This document shows positions 54,712 through 64,000 of a stretch of 64,000 nt of DNA, piece after piece. The notes beneath the pieces were generated by a model. That model ran no database searches, had not been told where the DNA came from, and worked only from the letters and a program-made list of their open reading frames with translations. The stretch spans positions 37,256 to 101,255 of IMG/VR virus record IMGVR_UViG_3300035670_000078. The stretch is one strand, 5' to 3'. The DNA is from a virus. Position numbers and translations under genes: made by a program. Within the stretch, counting starts at the first letter, position 1; every line of letters begins with the position of its first letter.

Positions 54712-56205
54712 TCAAGCGTAGCCGACGTTGTCCAGGATCCAGTGCTTCTGGGGAACGCCCATTTTGAGCGCGCCGAAGAGCATGATCATGAACTGGGTCG
54801 TGGCGCTGCGCGACACGGTGATCGGGCGGCGGGTGAGGTCAAGGAAGTTGACCCACTCCATGCAGTCGCGGCGGTTGGTGAGGATGTACACCGGCGACTT
54901 CTGCGGGCGGTGCTCGTTGATCTCGTCGAAGCGGGTGTGGGTACCCGAGGCAACGAGGTTGCGAGCAAAGCGGCCGACGAACCAGTACTCGTTCTGGTCA
55001 GCCGGGGCGCCAGCGCCCGTCGCAACGTCAGCGCGGAAGACGTTGTAGTAACGGATCGAGTTCGTGCCGTAGGAGGGCACGCCCGCGTCGTTGATGGTGA
55101 AGCGGCTGGAACCGCCCGCCGCCGAGTGCGAAACCGCCGCCGAAGCCGCGAAGTTGACCGCGCCCTCGTCGCCGATGCCTTCGACGATGTAGTGGAAGTC
55201 CTTGCCCGTCACGTCGGCGGTCTTGAACTTCGAGCCGGTGACCGACGCCTGGTAGGCGATGGACGGCGCGATGACAGCCGGAGCGCCGTCGCCCTCGGGG
55301 CGCGAGATCGGGTGCTCGCGGTGCGAGAGGAAGGGGATCGACAGGATGGGGATATTCCCGTGAGCCGTCGAGACGAAGAGCTTGCCGACGCCGCCGTAGA
55401 TGTCGCGCTGCTGCGAGATCTCCATACGGCCGTACTTGCTGAGCATCTGGTTCTGGAGGTTCGTCCACACGCGGTGGTCGCACCAGATCTCAGTGGGCTT
55501 CGCGTAGTACGGAGGATTGGTCATACGACCAATGATCTCCTGAAGCTCCTCGAGGGAGGTCACGGAGCCTTCGGCATCGCGGAAGTTCGACGGAGCGCCG
55601 GAGCGGATCGACTTGTAGATACCGTCGTACTCGAGCGGGTTGATGGACGAGTCGCCGTGGAAGAGGAAGGACTCCATCTTCTGGACGAGTTCCATCATGC
55701 CGTCCATCGAGGCGATCGAGATCGCCTGGGGCGACGGGTGCATCATGCCGGTCATCGACGCGACGTCGGTGATCTGGCGGAAGGTCGCGGCGTACTTGAC
55801 GCGGACAACCTTACGCTCGAACGACGACTCGCTGATGGCGGGGACGCCACCTTCGCGGACGAACGGGTTCAGCGCTGCCGAGCCGTAGCTGCGGCGAACG
55901 TTGTACTCGTGCATCGGGGACGAAGCCGAGGTCTTGGCGAGGAGCTTCCAAGCGACAATGTGCTCATCGTCGAAGGTCGCGTTGTCCAGCATGGGCTGGA
56001 TGGACTGGGGAACGAGCGGGGCGAACTCGCCGCCGGGGAGCGTGCCACTGTCGTAGCCAACGCCCTGGAGCGGGTAGTTCACACCACCCTTACGGAGGCC
56101 AAGCATCGCCGCCGAGCGGAGAGCCTGGTTGAGCTTACGAAGCTCGCCGACGCTGGCGTCAAAGCCTTCCGGCGGCAGCCCTGCGAGAAGATCCTGAGGA
56201 ATCAT
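54712..56205 (-). CDS. Major capsid protein (HK97 fold)
   Basis: 497 residues. Helical N-terminus then the peptide NYPLQGVGYDSG (43-54) and EFAPLVPQSIQ (60-70), a beta-rich core with ATFRQITDVASMTGMMHP and ESFLFHGDSSINPLEYDG, and a C-terminal P/T-rich region. The pattern fits the larger HK97-fold capsids of SPO1-type phages. Preceded by scaffold and protease genes, followed by a terminator. The shared N-terminal peptide also occurs in the protease. Assembly of the icosahedral shell. Confidence 0.88.
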   Translation of the reverse strand: MIPQDLLAGLPPEGFDASVGELRKLNQALRSAAMLGLRKGGVNYPLQGVGYDSGTLPGGEFAPLVPQSIQPMLDNATFDDEHIVAWKLLAKTSASSPMHEYNVRRSYGSAALNPFVREGGVPAISESSFERKVVRVKYAATFRQITDVASMTGMMHPSPQAISIASMDGMMELVQKMESFLFHGDSSINPLEYDGIYKSIRSGAPSNFRDAEGSVTSLEELQEIIGRMTNPPYYAKPTEIWCDHRVWTNLQNQMLSKYGRMEISQQRDIYGGVGKLFVSTAHGNIPILSIPFLSHREHPISRPEGDGAPAVIAPSIAYQASVTGSKFKTADVTGKDFHYIVEGIGDEGAVNFAASAAVSHSAAGGSSRFTINDAGVPSYGTNSIRYYNVFRADVATGAGAPADQNEYWFVGRFARNLVASGTHTRFDEINEHRPQKSPVYILTNRRDCMEWVNFLDLTRRPITVSRSATTQFMIMLFGALKMGVPQKHWILDNVGYA

Positions 56206-56236: not shown

Positions 56237-56989
56237 TCAGGCCTGAAGCCCGAGGTTGTAGCGGGTGTTGACGTCGCTCGGGAGCGCGCCGGAGAAGATC
56301 TCACCAAGCGCGAAGCGAAGCTCCTGCTTGCGGTCCTCAGCGGTGCCACCCTTGGCGATGTTCTCGTTGCAGAACTGCTCGACCTTGGTGAAGAGAGCAA
56401 GCTCGCGGTCAACTTCGATGTTGCCGGTGGCCTGCGCAACGACACCGTCAGCCGCGCCGCGAGCCGCCTCAGCGGGGTGCGGGACGACGGCGGTCGCCTG
56501 GGTCGACTTCGGGCCGCCCTTCGTGATGGCCTCAAGGCCCTTACGAAGCTCGGCAACAGTGTTGGTCAGCTCTGCATTGCGGCGGTCCATCTCGGCGAGG
56601 GTCGTGAGGACCGTCTTCTCGATGTTGCCGAGGGCGGTGAGACCCTTGACGAGCTGGGTGTAGTGGCGGTCCGACTGAGCCGAGAGCGCCGAGACCGAAG
56701 CCTCAATGTCAACGAGAGCCGACGCGCTGTCGACGTCCTCGTTGCCAACGAAGCGGGAGCCGCCCTTGACGATCTTGGCCGGGGCTGCGGGGGCAACCTC
56801 AGCGACAAAGGACTTGGCCAGTTCGTCGATGAGCTTGCTCATCTCGGCCTGACCGATAATGGGAGCCGCGCCGAGGTCGTCCTCGAGCTGGCCCTTGTGG
56901 ATCTTCTCGACGCAGATGGCTCGGGCTTCATCGTCGCCGAGCGTCGGAAGGAGCTTCTGAAACAGCTCGCTCGCCTTTCCCTTGATCAT
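56237..56989 (-). CDS. Scaffold protein
   Basis: 250 residues. Charged helical N-terminus (SELFQKLLPTLGDDEARAI), an Ala-rich linker, a coiled coil (about 90-150, VSALSAQSDRHYTQLVKGLTAL) and a C-terminal helical segment. Low aromatic content and placement between protease and capsid are typical of phage scaffolds, which guide prohead assembly and are then removed or cleaved. ATG overlaps the protease stop (ATGA). Confidence 0.7.
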   Translation of the reverse strand: MIKGKASELFQKLLPTLGDDEARAICVEKIHKGQLEDDLGAAPIIGQAEMSKLIDELAKSFVAEVAPAAPAKIVKGGSRFVGNEDVDSASALVDIEASVSALSAQSDRHYTQLVKGLTALGNIEKTVLTTLAEMDRRNAELTNTVAELRKGLEAITKGGPKSTQATAVVPHPAEAARGAADGVVAQATGNIEVDRELALFTKVEQFCNENIAKGGTAEDRKQELRFALGEIFSGALPSDVNTRYNLGLQA

Positions 56990-57861
56990 GGTTTTCCTGC
57001 CTTGTTTTGGGGTCCGACGCGAAGGCCCTTCGCCGTCAGGGACTGAACGATATAATCGAAAACACTTTCTGCCTGTGACCAGGTAAGTTCCTGCGACCAG
57101 GTCTTGGCGATTTGCATCACCAATTTCTCGCGATCAATTGATTGGGCACCTTGAAGAGACTGCGCAACCAATGGAGCAATCTCACCAACGTAGCCGGCAC
57201 CCTGCATGGGATAACCAACCTGCGCTTTGGTGATGGTTGCACCATTAGCTGACATCATCATGGGCTCCCACCAAGAGTCATGATTTCTTGGAGCAGCGGT
57301 AACCGCAAGCCACTTTACGCGGCCTTTTGCGATACGCTTCCCGACGCGCTGCTTGACGCCGCCCTCGATGGAAAATCCAATCGAGCGCTGGGCACCAGCC
57401 CGCTTCATAACTCTGGCTTTCTTGTAAGTGACGCGGCCCATCTTATCTTCAAGATAGAGGTCAGCGACGACCTTAGTCGCCTTGACCATCTGCCCCGTGA
57501 TCGCCGACTTGATCTCAGTCAGCTCAATGCCCACCGGGTAGCCGATGGTATTGACCACTCCGACGGGATGCTCAAGCAAAATCAGCCCGTGGCCCTTTTG
57601 CCCGCCCTTACCGATGAAGTAATCCCACTCGAGACCTTCCTGATCGACGATGTCACCATCCTCGTCAGGCGCCTCAGACGTGGCGATTCCAGAAATGCGG
57701 CCAAGCCTCGGCTTGGTCTTAGTCCCCTTGGAAAAACCTTCGATCGTTACCGAGGCCGGCGTCCAAAGACGGAACCGGTCCTCGTCAAGAAAGATCGAAG
57801 AGTCAAACCCGGAGGAAAGACCGCCGAAGCTAACAAGCTGTGGTTGTGCAGCAGTGTTCAC
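56986..57861 (-). CDS. Prohead protease (HK97 gp4/S78 type)
   Basis: 291 residues. Serine-protease motifs LLEHP (H98) and RSIGFSIEGG (S160 or S164), with VTAAPRN downstream, are those of HK97-like prohead proteases. The C-terminal quarter carries YPMQGAGY...EIAPLVAQSLQ (about 217-238), nearly the same as a segment of the capsid protein. GTG start with AGGAG eleven bases upstream. It would cleave scaffold and capsid termini during maturation. Confidence 0.82.
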   Translation of the reverse strand: MNTAAQPQLVSFGGLSSGFDSSIFLDEDRFRLWTPASVTIEGFSKGTKTKPRLGRISGIATSEAPDEDGDIVDQEGLEWDYFIGKGGQKGHGLILLEHPVGVVNTIGYPVGIELTEIKSAITGQMVKATKVVADLYLEDKMGRVTYKKARVMKRAGAQRSIGFSIEGGVKQRVGKRIAKGRVKWLAVTAAPRNHDSWWEPMMMSANGATITKAQVGYPMQGAGYVGEIAPLVAQSLQGAQSIDREKLVMQIAKTWSQELTWSQAESVFDYIVQSLTAKGLRVGPQNKAGKP

Positions 57862-57908: not shown

Positions 57909-59366
57909 TCAATTACCAACTACAGCCTTAGCGTCATCTTCCGTATCAGCTTGCTGGTTGGCGAGCTGATCTTGGATGTAGGCGGTGTAGAGGGCATTGA
58001 GAGGACGCTTCGAGACCGGGTCATCCCAGGGCTCGAGGCCGCGCTCAAGACGAAGCTCGTTCGGTGAGAGGAACGAGGAGACCGCCTTGAGGTCCAGCTC
58101 GATCTTCTTCTCTTCCGTGACCGCATCAAAGCCTCGGAAGGTGAGCCGGTATCCAGGCCAGTGAGGAGCAATGAGGAACTCATTGATCCAGCGCTGGATA
58201 GTCCGCATGAGCGGACGAAGGCCACGCTCCTTAGAGGCGATAATCCGATCAGTCGGAGAAGCCGAGCCAACCTGCGTCCTCTGGTTCTCCGTTCCGAAGA
58301 TGTCGCCCAGCTCGGCGGGGTCCATCTGGAACAGAGAGCACAGCTGCTTCTTCAGGAAGTTAATCCACTCGGAGAACTCCATCTCCTTGTTGGTCGATCC
58401 GAGAGGGTGGACCTTCAAGTATTCTTGGAGCGCCGGATTAACCTGGAAGAGCGGCGTGCGACGCGAATGTCGGATACCGGAGGTGGAGACCTCGATAACC
58501 CGCTGAAGCGTCGACATGCGGTCATCGGAGCCGATGATACCGGCCTCGATCAGGTTCTGGGAGTGGATACCCGTCGTGTAGTTGACGGTGTTGTGCGTGA
58601 TGGCGTTGACGAGGGCGGCCACGATGGAGACCGCCTTCTCAAGCTCAGGAGCGCCGTAGCCATTCCGATACATGAAGGTCTCGCGGTTGCGGATCCACCA
58701 TGACATCGTGTCGGGCGAGAACTCATTGACGATGCGGTTGTTGAGGACCTGGATATATCCGGTGTCCCGGATATCCCAGCGCATGTCTTTGATCTGGCTA
58801 CGGTCGGGAGCCTTCCGTCGCATCGTGGTCGGATCGGCGGGAACGAAGGCGCCGGGCTTGCCGGTCGTCACGTTCATCACCTTTTCCACGTTGACCTGAT
58901 CATACACGAGCGTGTCGTGAACGATCGCTCGGAGGAACGACTCGAACCCACCGGGGAAATAGGTGCCACCGCCGTTCAGGATGAACTCCTGAATCTCAGC
59001 GATGGTGGACCTATCCCGGCGAGTCAGGACGCGCTTCTTGTCATCGGGAGTGATGACATGGCCGAGGCTGTACGGATCAGGCTGCTGAACAGCGAAGTCA
59101 GAAGCCTGATTCATACGGGTCAGCAGGATCGCCGCGATATACGGGATGCGGGACATCGCCCGCAGCGTCGTATACGAGAGGATGCCCGTACCTTGATGGA
59201 TGTCCGACGGGAACATCGACTGGGCGGTGAGCCACATTGAGCTCATCGGGTCGAGGTTCGCCGCCTTAGGCGACGCCAAGCGCACTTCCCCGCCGGGCTT
59301 CAGTAGCTCCTTAGGGAGATCGCCCTTGGCGATGGTCTCAGAGCTGTCGGCGGTTTTGTCTGTCAC
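57909..59366 (-). CDS. Portal protein
   Basis: 485 residues. The N-terminus LSYTTLRAMSRIPYIAAILLTRMNQ, core FSPDTMSWWIRNRETFMYRNGYG with helical AVSIVAALVNAITHNTVNY, and FSEWINFLKKQLCSLFQMDPAELGD are the pattern of phage portals. The C-terminus is helical and charged (crown). GTG start overlapping the upstream stop (GTGA). It forms the 12-fold ring through which DNA enters and leaves the head. Confidence 0.88.
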   Translation of the reverse strand: MTDKTADSSETIAKGDLPKELLKPGGEVRLASPKAANLDPMSSMWLTAQSMFPSDIHQGTGILSYTTLRAMSRIPYIAAILLTRMNQASDFAVQQPDPYSLGHVITPDDKKRVLTRRDRSTIAEIQEFILNGGGTYFPGGFESFLRAIVHDTLVYDQVNVEKVMNVTTGKPGAFVPADPTTMRRKAPDRSQIKDMRWDIRDTGYIQVLNNRIVNEFSPDTMSWWIRNRETFMYRNGYGAPELEKAVSIVAALVNAITHNTVNYTTGIHSQNLIEAGIIGSDDRMSTLQRVIEVSTSGIRHSRRTPLFQVNPALQEYLKVHPLGSTNKEMEFSEWINFLKKQLCSLFQMDPAELGDIFGTENQRTQVGSASPTDRIIASKERGLRPLMRTIQRWINEFLIAPHWPGYRLTFRGFDAVTEEKKIELDLKAVSSFLSPNELRLERGLEPWDDPVSKRPLNALYTAYIQDQLANQQADTEDDAKAVVGN

Positions 59367-62300
59367 GAGAGCTTACCTTTGACGTCCACGTAGCGAGCGC
59401 GGAGAGCGAGGGGTCCCTTCGCCATGCGAAGGTAGTGGGCTTGGCTTCGGACTGAGGCGGGGGCGAAGGCTAGGTCCTCGGCGAAGTCTGAGAAGTCACC
59501 AACTGACTCCTTGATATATTCATCAAGTTCGTTGGTCGGCACAAGACCTTTCGCAAGCCAAGCGTCGAGAGGGTCGATCGCCGACTTACCGGTCTCGACG
59601 AGACCGGCGACAGCCATGTTGGCCTTCTTGATCTCGTCCTTGCTCACCTCGGGCTCAGCCTTCTCCACCTTCTTGCCCGTGGCATCGGCAAGCATGGACT
59701 GAGCGCGCTTCCTAATCCCAGCCTTCACCGAGTCGGGGATCTGGGTACCCTCGAGGCGGGCGAGAGCGTTGCGGAGGTGAGGGAGGTCAACCTTTCCGTT
59801 CTTGTCCTTATAAGGAAGGTGACGGAGCGACCGGGGCGTGGTCTTGCCCTCACCATCCTTCTTTCCGCCGGACTCGACGTAGAGGAAGGCAGAGTCGGGC
59901 AGGTCGTTGACATAGGCGGTCGTCCAGACAGCCTTGCGCACCGGCTCGATCTCGTTGTCCTCCTCGGCAAGCTTGAGGACCTCGTTGTAGTCGCGGTTGA
60001 GAACCGCAACGCTCATGGCCTTCATCACGTCGTCGCTAAGCTCGCCAGCCTTCGACCGGCGAAGAGCGTTGACGTAAGCAGCCTGAGCCTGCGCACGGAT
60101 AAGCTCGTGCTCGGGCTGCTTGGTTCCCCAGTCAGCAAGCTCGACGGAGGACTTCACGACCTTTTCCTTATGGCGCCACTGCTTACACGACCAGTACTTG
60201 GCGGTGAGGATGTCCTTGCCCGCTGCCGTGTCGCAGCCGTGGCGGCTGCGGAAATTCTTGCGGCGCTCGGGATCGTCGCGGCGGATTTCCATGTTGGCGT
60301 CGCCAAACCGGATCACGCGCGTCTTGCCCTGAGCGTTGCGAGCGTTGACGACAAACTTCTTCTTGCCGTAGCCGGGCTCACCCTGACGGATGCGGCGGGG
60401 CTTGTTGTAGTCGTCGGGGATGCTGTCAGCCTTCACGACATCGACGTGGGTCGTCATGTCGGTGGCCTTGATGATCGACGGCTCGTTGACCGAATCGTCC
60501 TCCCACTCCTCGCAATCCTCGCAGCCTTCGCACTCAGCGCAGTCACCTTCCGTCTCAAGGAAGGGCTGGTGGTACTCGAGGAGCATCTTCTGGAGCTGAT
60601 CGATACCGAGGCTGCCACGGCGGCCGGTCCCATCGTGCGCGACGTGAAGCATCTGCCCGACGCGATCCTCGATGGAGACAAAGCCGTCGACGAACTTCTC
60701 GCCCGTGTGGATCGGGCAGTGGAACTTCACGCCCGGCGTCACGATGTTGGCGAAGTGGTCGCTCTCGACAAGCGAGAGGAACGCCGTCTTGTCGTAGACG
60801 TAGCGCGCCCGATTATCCCCGCGAGCCGGGGACAGCCGTGCGAGGAACTGGCCGCCCTTCTCGATCGCGTCGTCCAGCACCGCTGCCTTTGAAGACAGCG
60901 AGTTCTGGCCAGGCGTGGTCGACTTCTGTACAGCAGTCGCCGTCGTGAAGCTTGACGTCGGCAGATCGCTTGAAGTTGTAAGAGTCTGAACAGGAGAGGA
61001 TTTCTCGGCCTCGGTCGGAGAGCATGTCTGGGTTCCTTTATTGATCTTGTGCTTCTTTGACTGAAGCGTCTGAAGGATGCGCTGGATATCTGACTCGCGG
61101 CCCTCGATCGTGCCGTAAGCCTTTCGAACGGTCATCTCAGCGCGCTTGAGGTCCTCGGGGTCCGTCACGTCGCGCTCATCCCGCTTGATCTCAGCGCGGA
61201 TCTGCTCCTTCGGGTTTGCGGTCGAGTACGGGTCGGCGGCGCGCTTGAGGTCCTCGAAAGCCTTCGGGAACGCCTTGGCAGCCCCGAGATTCTCGAGGTA
61301 ACCCATCGCGATGCCAGGCGGGCAGTACGACATACCCTCAGGGCAGGGAGGATGGCCGAACTGGCGGGCGACCTTATCGGAGGCCTTGCGCACGCAAGCA
61401 GCTGCCTTGGCCATACCGTCGTTGGCGATGTCGAACTTAGGCGTCTTCGACAGATAATCGGCGCACATGATGGCCGCATTGGCGTGCATCATGGTCTCGC
61501 CATCGAAATGACCGACGCCGGCCTTCTTGATGAGCTTCTTAACCTGCGAGGGCTTGGCGTTGAAGAGCCTTCCCTCACCGGATTGACGCCGAGAAGCGAC
61601 GTGCTCAGCGACAACGGGCTCATGAACCGAGGCCATGTAGGCGTGCCCACGAGGGTGGGCGAACATGAAGTGGGCTTTGTCAGGGTGCTCGACGTCTTCC
61701 GTCGAGCCTCCCTTCTGCAACCCGGCCGTCGAACGGAGGAACCAAGCCGCTTTGTCGTGGTCAGCGGCCCGCTTGCCGAGGATATCGACCGTTCCGGCGT
61801 CATTTTCGGCCTCAGCGGCCTCGACACCCTGCTCGCAAAGCTCACAAAGCTGCTCATGGGCCGCGATCAGCTCGACCAACATGCCCTGAGCGTCGGCCGG
61901 CATGGCTCGAGGCTCGATCGAAACCTCATCGACGACGATTTGGAAGCCGCGAATGCGCTCGGCGAGCAGGTCAACGGCGTCAGCGAGGTCATCGTACTGG
62001 TCGCCGAAGAGCACATGGAGCTGCGGGAAGGTCGGGCCGGTCACGTTCCAGTGGAAAGACTGGGTGCGGTCGCGCAGAGCGATCGACGCGGTGAGGATTT
62101 CGCGCAGCTTGTCGGTCGTCTGGCCCTTAAAGAGGTCAGGATTGCCCGACTTCTTCATCTTACGGGCAACGTGGGTGGCCTCGGGGTGCAGCGCCAGCAC
62201 GTTATTGACGGGGTGACCGGTCTTCAGATGCACCAGCGCGGCCATGGCGGCTTCGCGGTCGGGGCTATCGGACTTGCAGCACTCAGCGAGGTACTCCTGA

Positions 62301-62704
62301 GCCTTCGCCATGGCGTCAGCGGCGCCCTTGGTGTCGTCATGGACCTTGGAATAACGGTTCCAATGGAACCGCTTGGTGTAGGAGCGGCGATCGCTGCCCT
62401 TATCATCCTTCCACATCAGCACGGGCTTCTTATCGATATCGCCCTCGGCGTCGATATCCACATGCTGGGGATGGGTTTCCTTCGACGGCTTATGGCCATC
62501 GAGGTCGTATTGAGCCTGCGCCTTCATCCAGGCATCGCCATCCTGACCTTTTTCAAAGTCGGGGGCGGCGCCTTTGGGGGCGGCAGTACCAACGGAGTTT
62601 ACGCCGTCCTTCACCTGGGTCCACTCCTTAGATGTGGAGGTGGGTTTCTCCCAGACGGAGCCATCGGCGCGCTGACGAACTGTACCTGCGGGATCTGCTT
62701 TCAT
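59363..62704 (-). CDS. 1113-residue virion-associated fusion protein with Dps domain
   Basis: Domains by residue: 1-90 low-complexity start; about 90-185 a segment resembling topoisomerase IB (WKDDKGSDRRSYTKRFHW, ALVHLKTGHPVN); 190-330 a Dps-like ferritin domain with HWNVTG (H218), LH (H230) and DAVDLLAERI (D245, E249); about 340-485 an unrecognised helical domain; 550-620 a Ser/Thr linker; a CX2CX2CX2C cluster at 722-731; about 768-845 a conserved phage-type domain (RFGDANMEIRRDDPERRKNFRSRHGC); 925-1005 a domain like the C-termini of phage head proteins (LPDSAFLYVESGGKK). The gene overlaps portal by GTGA. Probably a head core or capsid-internal protein; iron handling is inference. Confidence 0.75.
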   Translation of the reverse strand: MKADPAGTVRQRADGSVWEKPTSTSKEWTQVKDGVNSVGTAAPKGAAPDFEKGQDGDAWMKAQAQYDLDGHKPSKETHPQHVDIDAEGDIDKKPVLMWKDDKGSDRRSYTKRFHWNRYSKVHDDTKGAADAMAKAQEYLAECCKSDSPDREAAMAALVHLKTGHPVNNVLALHPEATHVARKMKKSGNPDLFKGQTTDKLREILTASIALRDRTQSFHWNVTGPTFPQLHVLFGDQYDDLADAVDLLAERIRGFQIVVDEVSIEPRAMPADAQGMLVELIAAHEQLCELCEQGVEAAEAENDAGTVDILGKRAADHDKAAWFLRSTAGLQKGGSTEDVEHPDKAHFMFAHPRGHAYMASVHEPVVAEHVASRRQSGEGRLFNAKPSQVKKLIKKAGVGHFDGETMMHANAAIMCADYLSKTPKFDIANDGMAKAAACVRKASDKVARQFGHPPCPEGMSYCPPGIAMGYLENLGAAKAFPKAFEDLKRAADPYSTANPKEQIRAEIKRDERDVTDPEDLKRAEMTVRKAYGTIEGRESDIQRILQTLQSKKHKINKGTQTCSPTEAEKSSPVQTLTTSSDLPTSSFTTATAVQKSTTPGQNSLSSKAAVLDDAIEKGGQFLARLSPARGDNRARYVYDKTAFLSLVESDHFANIVTPGVKFHCPIHTGEKFVDGFVSIEDRVGQMLHVAHDGTGRRGSLGIDQLQKMLLEYHQPFLETEGDCAECEGCEDCEEWEDDSVNEPSIIKATDMTTHVDVVKADSIPDDYNKPRRIRQGEPGYGKKKFVVNARNAQGKTRVIRFGDANMEIRRDDPERRKNFRSRHGCDTAAGKDILTAKYWSCKQWRHKEKVVKSSVELADWGTKQPEHELIRAQAQAAYVNALRRSKAGELSDDVMKAMSVAVLNRDYNEVLKLAEEDNEIEPVRKAVWTTAYVNDLPDSAFLYVESGGKKDGEGKTTPRSLRHLPYKDKNGKVDLPHLRNALARLEGTQIPDSVKAGIRKRAQSMLADATGKKVEKAEPEVSKDEIKKANMAVAGLVETGKSAIDPLDAWLAKGLVPTNELDEYIKESVGDFSDFAEDLAFAPASVRSQAHYLRMAKGPLALRARYVDVKGKLS

Positions 62705-62732: not shown

Positions 62733-63524
62733 TTAGTCCACCTGTTGCGCCTGAACGATTTGAAAAACGTCCCAGATCAGTTTGAAAATATCAACCTGAT
62801 ATTCAAAGACTGTAACAGCGTCGGGACCATTTTCGCACAGCTCGATCGTGGCGGCCGGACCATTCATCGGACCGTTGACGGCGAGGGAGTCAAACCCGCT
62901 CACCCAGACCAGCGTCCAGCTATCATTAAGAAGCATGAGGCGCGGCTGCGGCAGCTGCGGGAAAACCTCGCGCAGCTGCCGCATCAGGGGGCGGATGATA
63001 TTCACCAGCAAAGCATCCCGGACCGGATCGGTGCGCGCCCGGCGGCGCTTCTTGGGCAGCGGCTTTTTGGCGGGCGGGACCAGGGCGGCCGGCTCGCGCT
63101 CATCATGCGGGGCATGGGCGGCCCAAACCACATCCTCATATGAAGATACCTGGATGGGATCGAGATAGACCTTCTCCCCATACCAACGGCAAACGGCCAC
63201 ATGAACGATCCGCCACGCCTCAAGCTCATGCAGATGCGGGGGGATATCCTTCAGATGCGTTTGCCCCACATGCTGGCGAAGCCACCGAAGGGGATTGGAC
63301 GCCAACCGCCGAAGCTCCCCATCGGTGAGCATCGTGGGGGTATTGGGCCATTTATGCTTCCGGCCCTCCCGCCGCTCCTCGCGATGGCAAATATTGCAGA
63401 GCCCCCGGCTGTTGTAAAAACGCCCCGGCTTCCCCAGACCGCATTTGCGGCAAACGGGGCAATAGACGGGGAAAGGCCGACCGCCCAGATACGCGCCGCT
63501 CTTCCTCGCCTTCGAAACGCCCAT
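62733..63524 (-). CDS. Hypothetical zinc-finger protein
   Basis: 263 residues from ATG 63524; an in-frame GTG/ATG region further upstream to 63560 is less likely. An N-terminal zinc finger CPVCRKCGLGKPG...CNICHREE (about 23-50), a mixed core with RWLRQHVGQTHLKDIPPHLHELE, a Lys/Arg-rich linker (PPAKKPLPKKRRRARTD) and a C-terminal hydrophobic helix. Not recognised; terminase or packaging-related roles are possible from its place ahead of portal, but no ATPase motif is present. No strong ribosome site. Confidence 0.5.
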   Translation of the reverse strand: MGVSKARKSGAYLGGRPFPVYCPVCRKCGLGKPGRFYNSRGLCNICHREERREGRKHKWPNTPTMLTDGELRRLASNPLRWLRQHVGQTHLKDIPPHLHELEAWRIVHVAVCRWYGEKVYLDPIQVSSYEDVVWAAHAPHDEREPAALVPPAKKPLPKKRRRARTDPVRDALLVNIIRPLMRQLREVFPQLPQPRLMLLNDSWTLVWVSGFDSLAVNGPMNGPAATIELCENGPDAVTVFEYQVDIFKLIWDVFQIVQAQQVD

Positions 63525-63669
63525 GGGCGTTAGGGTGGCACGGGCGGGCGGAAAGCACAAGGAAACGGAAACAAGGCACCCCCACTAGGGCGAAGCCAAA
63601 AACGCGCACCCGCCCGGAGGGCAGGTGACCCGAAATAATCGGACCAGGGATAATCGGTCCATGGATAAT

Positions 63670-63683
63670 CCCCCCCCCCCCCC
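63670..63683. repeat. C14 homopolymer inside the repeat array
   Basis: Fourteen consecutive C between two array units, followed by AGGGATAATC. Either a slippage-prone locus or a consensus artefact. Confidence 0.7.
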
Positions 63684-63903
63684 AGGGATAATCGGACCGG
63701 GGATAACCGCTCACGGATAATCAAGCCGTGGATTATCCGACCGGCGACCGGGGATAATCGATCCGTGGCCCAAATAATCGGGGCGAGGATAATCGGACCG
63801 GGGTGCCGCGACCAAATAATCGGGGACCGTGGGGTAGGGGGTGGGGGGTGGGGCGTATCATTATATATGAACGTGGGTGCCGTGTGCCGGTGTGCGGGGA
63901 TCG

Positions 63904-63925
63904 GTGTGTGTGTGTGTGTGTGTGT
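63904..63925. repeat. (GT)11 microsatellite
   Basis: Eleven GT units, 63904-63925. Simple GT tracts are uncommon in phage genomes and form Z-DNA-prone, slippage-prone DNA. Confidence 0.75.
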
Positions 63926-64000
63926 AGGGGGCCGGGGATAATGGGACCGGTGGTGCGGGAAGAAATGGGGCCGATGCCTGGGGGCCGGGGATAATGGATT

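Follow-up and report, generated by a model that had tools for sequence, protein, structure and literature searches.

A Dps domain within a head-operon protein of an uncultivated tailed phage, and its recurrent fusion to head proteins in other phages

An open question in tailed phages is by what means oxidative damage to the packaged DNA is kept in check, and to our knowledge phage DNA receives no repair inside the particle. The stretch of 64,000 nucleotides analysed here (the window), which constitutes the final 64 kb of a 101,255-bp IMG/VR virus record, encodes on its complementary strand a multidomain protein of 1113 amino acids (positions 59363-62704, an open reading frame with an ATG start), in which a preliminary description had recognized a Dps ferritin-like domain. 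The locus thereby raises two questions, namely whether this domain is a genuine Dps, and what such a domain would do in a protein encoded beside the genes for the virus head.

The identification was confirmed, and residues 195-328 (61721-62122, complementary strand) correspond to a genuine Dps domain. Profile searches gave significant matches far beyond chance, with residues 198-326 matching the Pfam Ferritin family PF00210 at an E value of 1.8e-18 (67.3 bits, cut-off 24.5), and the domain matching the PHROG Dps family phrog_3636 at 1.3e-20; the top match among solved structures was PDB chain 8ff9, the Dps protein PA0962 of P. aeruginosa (9e-16). The NCBIfam Dps equivalog was also matched at 2.6e-11, with 43.9 bits, under the model's own cut-off of 114. 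An AlphaFold model of residues 1-500, built on an alignment containing Dps homologues, displayed a four-helix bundle at residues 195-327 with pLDDT about 96 (predicted helices 195-220, 226-252, 272-299 and 303-327), the remainder being mostly at 30-79, and the best 50 PDB matches retrieved by Foldseek were all Dps structures, with TM about 0.8 on the target. Residues 253-271, between helices 2 and 3, were modelled as a loop that falls short of the usual Dps length by about 8 residues, and the short BC helix was absent from this loop in the AlphaFold model; such a helix is common in Dps, but its predicted absence does not seem decisive given the agreement of sequence, fold and ligands. This domain is the sole ferritin-family match of the whole record.

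The preliminary description had also placed four ferroxidase residues in the arrangement of E. coli Dps, together with a glycine and a neighbouring aspartate where that protein has D67, and the residues were found where it had put them. On the complementary strand, H218 (62051-62053), H230 (62015-62017), D245 (61970-61972) and E249 (61958-61960) are the counterparts of H51, H63, D78 and E82 of E. coli Dps and of H37, H49, D64 and E68 of PA0962, while the D67 position of the window domain is occupied by G234 (62003-62005) rather than by an aspartate, D235 being adjacent. In Fe-soaked PA0962 crystals, the ligands are H37 and H49 of one subunit, and D64 and E68 of the other (PMC10002758). The four residues kept in the window domain are thus the four ligands of PA0962, so that Gly234 removes no observed ligand of that protein, and the D67 position, not being among these ligands, was treated as non-defining. 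As the ligands are supplied by two subunits, activity requires at least a dimer, whose interface may differ from that of usual Dps given Gly234 and the shorter, helix-less loop of the model. The H/H/D/E ligands were invariant in every domain compared, whether fused (31/31), free viral (115/115) or bacterial (60/60), although these sets were collected with peptide patterns including FHWNVTGP or HWNV, and the invariance of the first histidine is therefore partly built in. Glycine at the D67 position is frequent in viral domains (22 of the 31 fused and 55 of the 115 free ones) and occurred in none of the 60 bacterial domains, which mostly carry glutamate there; directly after this position, 29 of the 31 fused domains have an acidic residue.

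A misassembled or frame-fused reading frame holding a decayed Dps was also considered, and the single contig available to the preliminary description was the only point in favour of this explanation. A 100% identical copy and a 73% identical homologue of the 1113-residue protein were found in contigs from two other metagenomes (L001 and L002, respectively), and the presence of the same fusion in other samples indicates that it is not an assembly artefact. Furthermore, dN/dS between the window protein and the L002 homologue was 0.055 for the Dps domain, the lowest among ten segments, and 0.192 for the whole protein, showing that purifying selection acts on the domain. With these copies, this value and dozens of similar fusions described below, an artefactual reading frame was rejected, its probability being practically negligible. 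Within the protein, the Dps domain is flanked by about 190 and 785 residues, and Pfam and PHROG searches gave no protease match in any part of it; scans for further relatives of its N-terminal half yielded nothing new.

The gene leads directly into a set of head genes on the same strand, in line with the head-gene context previously proposed for the Dps module. Its stop overlaps the start of the portal gene by 4 bp (GTGA, 59363-59366), an overlap also present by coordinates in L002, and this arrangement makes it likely that both genes are translationally coupled. The portal protein (57909-59366; phrog_12, 2.6e-27) is distantly SPO1-like, with about 30% identity to SPO1 gp3.1, and is followed by a head maturation protease (56986-57861; phrog_1028, 3.2e-15), a putative scaffold (56237-56989), designated by its position between the protease and the major head protein and displaying no family match, and the major head protein (54712-56205; phrog_752, 1.3e-47). 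The same order of fusion, portal, protease, scaffold-position gene and major head protein is kept in L002. Both the portal and the capsid protein are distantly related to their counterparts in SPO1-type phages, and tail sheath and baseplate proteins are also encoded in the window, so that the virus is a myovirus. The gene preceding the fusion (62733-63560, complementary strand) has a weak HNH-endonuclease match and is kept in L002 as well, and the end of the record (63530-64000) is repeat-rich and of low complexity, with runs encoding THTHTH and PGPIIP.

Scanning viral contigs with the window Dps domain retrieved mainly free-standing genes and three other long reading frames. One of these (L040) carries an N-terminal Dps followed by about 1280 residues; another (L054, 632-5701) holds, in a single reading frame, two Dps domains in tandem together with a prohead protease of the Peptidase_S78 family; and the third (L106) combines Peptidase_S78_2 with Dps, according to Pfam. 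Upstream of the L054 fusion is a fragment that was identified by eye as a Mu F-like minor head protein. A scan with the L040 domain gave no new relatives, and many more fusions were found with the Dps domains of L054 and L120. In PHROG and Pfam searches, the protease was N-terminal to Dps in seven contigs (L123, L124, L132, L139, L297, L134 and L135) and C-terminal to it in seven others (L131, L307, L148, L260, L257, L136 and L138), and it formed part of polyproteins of up to 2334 residues encoded beside the capsid gene in L120, L129, L234, L242, L255 and L235. Pfam recognized both Peptidase_S78 and Ferritin in one reading frame in L339, L344, L131, L260, L138, L132 and L054, the best values in fused reading frames being 1.6e-48 and 5e-17, respectively. 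Three-part fusions of a HAD/PNK-type phosphatase domain, Dps and prohead protease were present in L131 (2694-4631), L307, L148 and L339 (5332-7347), and the giant polyproteins of L129 (712-7713, 2334 residues) and L120 (1690-6909, 1740 residues), which contain portal/protease-family regions with Dps near the C-terminus, directly precede the major head protein. In L256 (5721-7423), Dps is encoded by a free-standing gene that lies between those for portal and major head protein, and the start of this gene overlaps the prohead protease gene at its end; in L040 the Dps fusion comes after the portal and a DarB-like/methylase/minor-head module. In L150 (5951-15734), the portal precedes a run of large proteins, whose domains are of the DNA methyltransferase, DarB-like and minor-head-protein types, and the Dps fusion comes next.

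A protease domain was present in 28 of the 34 fused reading frames tallied, and in 33 of them a head gene was found in the reading frame itself or within three genes of it; for free Dps genes the neighbour tally gave 8/150, a contrast that is biased because its seeds came from the same loci. A scan with the L106 domain returned 19 loci, 18 of them fused and all 18 with a protease, adding 17 contigs to the set. In total, about 51 contigs, some of them near-identical copies, have Dps inside a long reading frame, and about 45 of these include a head-maturation protease domain. The link to head genes anticipated from the window thus recurs in many unrelated environmental phages, whose Dps domains time and again share a polypeptide with a prohead protease or lie beside portal and capsid genes. 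The additional claim that Dps is normally free-standing and that its fusion is unusual stands for bacteria, with none fused among the 61 bacterial Dps reading frames examined, but not for phages, in which fusions are common even though most phage Dps genes in our set are free-standing; the fusion in the window therefore belongs to a recurrent class. All fused examples come from uncultivated contigs, and no Dps fusion was found among INPHARED isolates. Support from another source was provided by BFVD, where UniProt entries named "Prohead protease" display a Dps fold (e.g., A0A6J7WIS1, A0A6J7XDU5 and A0A6J7WPK9). With its separate protease gene, the window protein falls outside the protease-Dps subset, and is related to it in kind as a head-operon Dps fusion.

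A quick tree separated two sets, both with an SH-aLRT of 100: the window and L040 domains fell within a group of 28 rows of bacterial-type Dps, and the protease-type fusions within a phage clade of 73 rows. A clade comprising every fused row was not rejected by the AU test (p = 0.081), and neither was a single clade of protease-type fusions (p = 0.53); the fusion in the window likely arose separately, a separate origin that the AU test does not prove. Repeated independent fusion is also likely, and the swapped domain orders and different partners argue for it more strongly than the Dps tree.

With the integration of these findings, our preferred reading, to which we assign a probability of roughly 0.5, is that the 1113-residue protein is a head-associated cargo whose Dps domain guards packaged or injected DNA. 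The domain would enter the prohead as part of a polypeptide expressed from, and coupled to, the portal-protease-scaffold-capsid operon; in the head, Dps domains would pair or form oligomers, and their inter-subunit sites would oxidise Fe2+ with H2O2, keeping iron and peroxide from yielding hydroxyl radicals beside the packaged DNA, a protection that might also cover freshly injected DNA. Most of the other fusion phages would accomplish the same job by directly joining Dps to the prohead protease, which acts inside the prohead. We infer each of the steps past synthesis with the head proteins, from head entry and oligomerisation to the oxidation of iron and the protection of DNA. Regarding targeting, the most economical reading is that a partner working in the prohead, or coupled to the portal, carries the domain into the head, and a recurrent link to head proteases and head genes, as observed, would be expected of a domain brought there; as the window Dps is not fused to a protease, its own targeting to the head is argued from gene position and analogy. 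The long flanking segments could hinder assembly of a 12-mer. The broader idea of a cage within a cage, in which fusions with prohead proteases or portal-linked proteins let many tailed phages place Dps oligomers in the head as the genome's ferroxidase guard, is offered as a tentative and rather doubtful one.

Three other roles were weighed against that of a head-borne guard. The protein might be an effector that is packaged and ejected with the DNA, its Dps domain scavenging iron or peroxide during the first minutes in the new host, in the manner of packaged P1 Dar, T4 Alt or polyvalent proteins; the multidomain string of modules does resemble the polyvalent proteins encoded beside virion genes (PMC5512222), the L040 fusion is located in a DarB-like module, and HAD/PNK-type phosphatases are found among other fusion partners. 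Nevertheless, the commonest form of the fusion, that with a prohead protease, points to the prohead stage, and we regard an injected effector as unlikely. As a rule, such proteases do not outlast maturation, during which they are removed or digested. That same stage would suit a Dps fold serving mainly as an oligomerising core, which would nucleate or count protease or scaffold in the prohead and for which iron would be secondary: Dps is a self-assembling cage, its partners are prohead-interior proteins, and its position varies around the protease. Such an assembly module would have no need of the four ligands that are invariant in every fused domain, an argument not fully independent for the first ligand in a set partly selected by HWN, and we consider this explanation quite improbable. 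At least as improbable is a stress protein working within the infected cell, before or after excision, to raise the oxidative tolerance of the host, as proposed for the free Dps and Mn-catalase of gut phages, Gratiaviridae (Benler et al., PMC8008677); free-standing genes are indeed the majority of phage Dps genes in the set, but an intracellular role fails to explain the frequent joining to head proteases and late head genes. Taken together, a role that is structural alone is disfavoured by the invariant ligands, and one confined to the cell interior by the link to head proteases.

Comparison with known systems delimits what is new in this locus. PA0962 (PDB 8ff9; PMC10002758) is the best match of the window domain in sequence and fold, with the same four ligands from two subunits, but it is a free-standing protein of 156 residues with Glu at the D67 position and a long loop with a two-turn helix. 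Free-standing phage Dps proteins are already known (PMC6669764, PMC8008677), including those of the Lactobacillus phage Semele group (PMC6669764), Gratiaviridae (PMC8008677) and Proteus phage Privateer; these are likewise phage-encoded, but, unlike the window domain, they are separate unfused genes in a metabolism region or untied to head genes. Prohead serine proteases of the Peptidase_S78/XkdF type are head-morphogenesis proteins, and it is to them that Dps is usually fused in the other phages, whereas in the window the Dps domain resides in a protein encoded upstream of the portal. Regarding head cargo, P1 DarA/DarB (DarB in the head) and the T4 cargo are established packaged proteins (PMC9024508), while for the "polyvalent" phage proteins packaging has been inferred (PMC5512222). 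P1 DarA/DarB, T4 IPs/Alt and the polyvalent proteins are encoded with head genes and often multidomain, a likeness to the window protein that is drawn from the genes; nonetheless, the known cargo targets restriction or host enzymes, not iron as proposed for Dps, and the word ferritin is absent from the main text of Iyer et al. (PMC5512222). A further parallel is gp217 of the Vi01-like phage Sajous1, a ferritin-like protein detected by mass spectrometry of phage preparations (PMC10892097), which differs from the window protein in being a separate gene near a tail completion gene, read as a putative "Ferrojan horse" entry factor (PMC10892097).

No description of a Dps or ferritin domain fused to a prohead or capsid protease was found in the open-access literature; the "DPs" of a paper on phage 7-7-1 are decoration proteins, unrelated to Dps. 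Our results thus place a known domain, Dps, in a head-protein setting that is new, recurs among phages and is suggestive of a function. If the proposed role is true, the widespread fusion of Dps to head proteins would be a direct answer to how packaged DNA is protected from oxidation, would bring to light a class of head cargo that was not expected, and would supply natural models for placing ferritin-like cages in capsids; Dps cages within heads would, in turn, be a phage counterpart of the Dps-protected bacterial nucleoid.

As for the remainder of the 1113-residue protein, residues 93-194 and 331-480 (within 61200-62430) resemble, by eye, a topoisomerase IB split by the Dps insert. A split domain of this type was not supported, judging from very shallow alignments: Pfam gave no topoisomerase IB match, PF01028 being absent from the record, and no meaningful PDB match was obtained; hhalign against bacterial topoisomerase IB reproduced the by-eye register, but with a probability of 0.3% and P about 0.2, and 683/2000 shuffles scored equally high; and residues 331-500 were modelled at pLDDT 56, with no Foldseek match better than E 3.5. 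Two other modules were traced to other phages. An HVA1-type module (phrog_7595, 1.9e-10) at residues 764-843 (60176-60415, complementary strand) is also present in gp55 of Roseobacter phage CRP-6, three genes upstream of the capsid gene, and the module at residues 917-1003 (59696-59956, complementary strand), which includes SLRHLPYKDKNGKVDLPHLRNALARL, has a 65% identical stretch in the Thermoanaerobacterium phage THSA-485A, where it belongs to gene three of a run headed by the large terminase. Two non-Dps modules of the protein thus recur near head genes in other phages. Finally, a protein homologous to the C-terminal part of the 1113-residue protein (L035, 1-2355) carries an extra insert of about 120 residues with a motif (RNDGIYVKTGEHKWSRQGE) resembling the N-terminus of the window protein, which indicates that modules have been swapped in and out.
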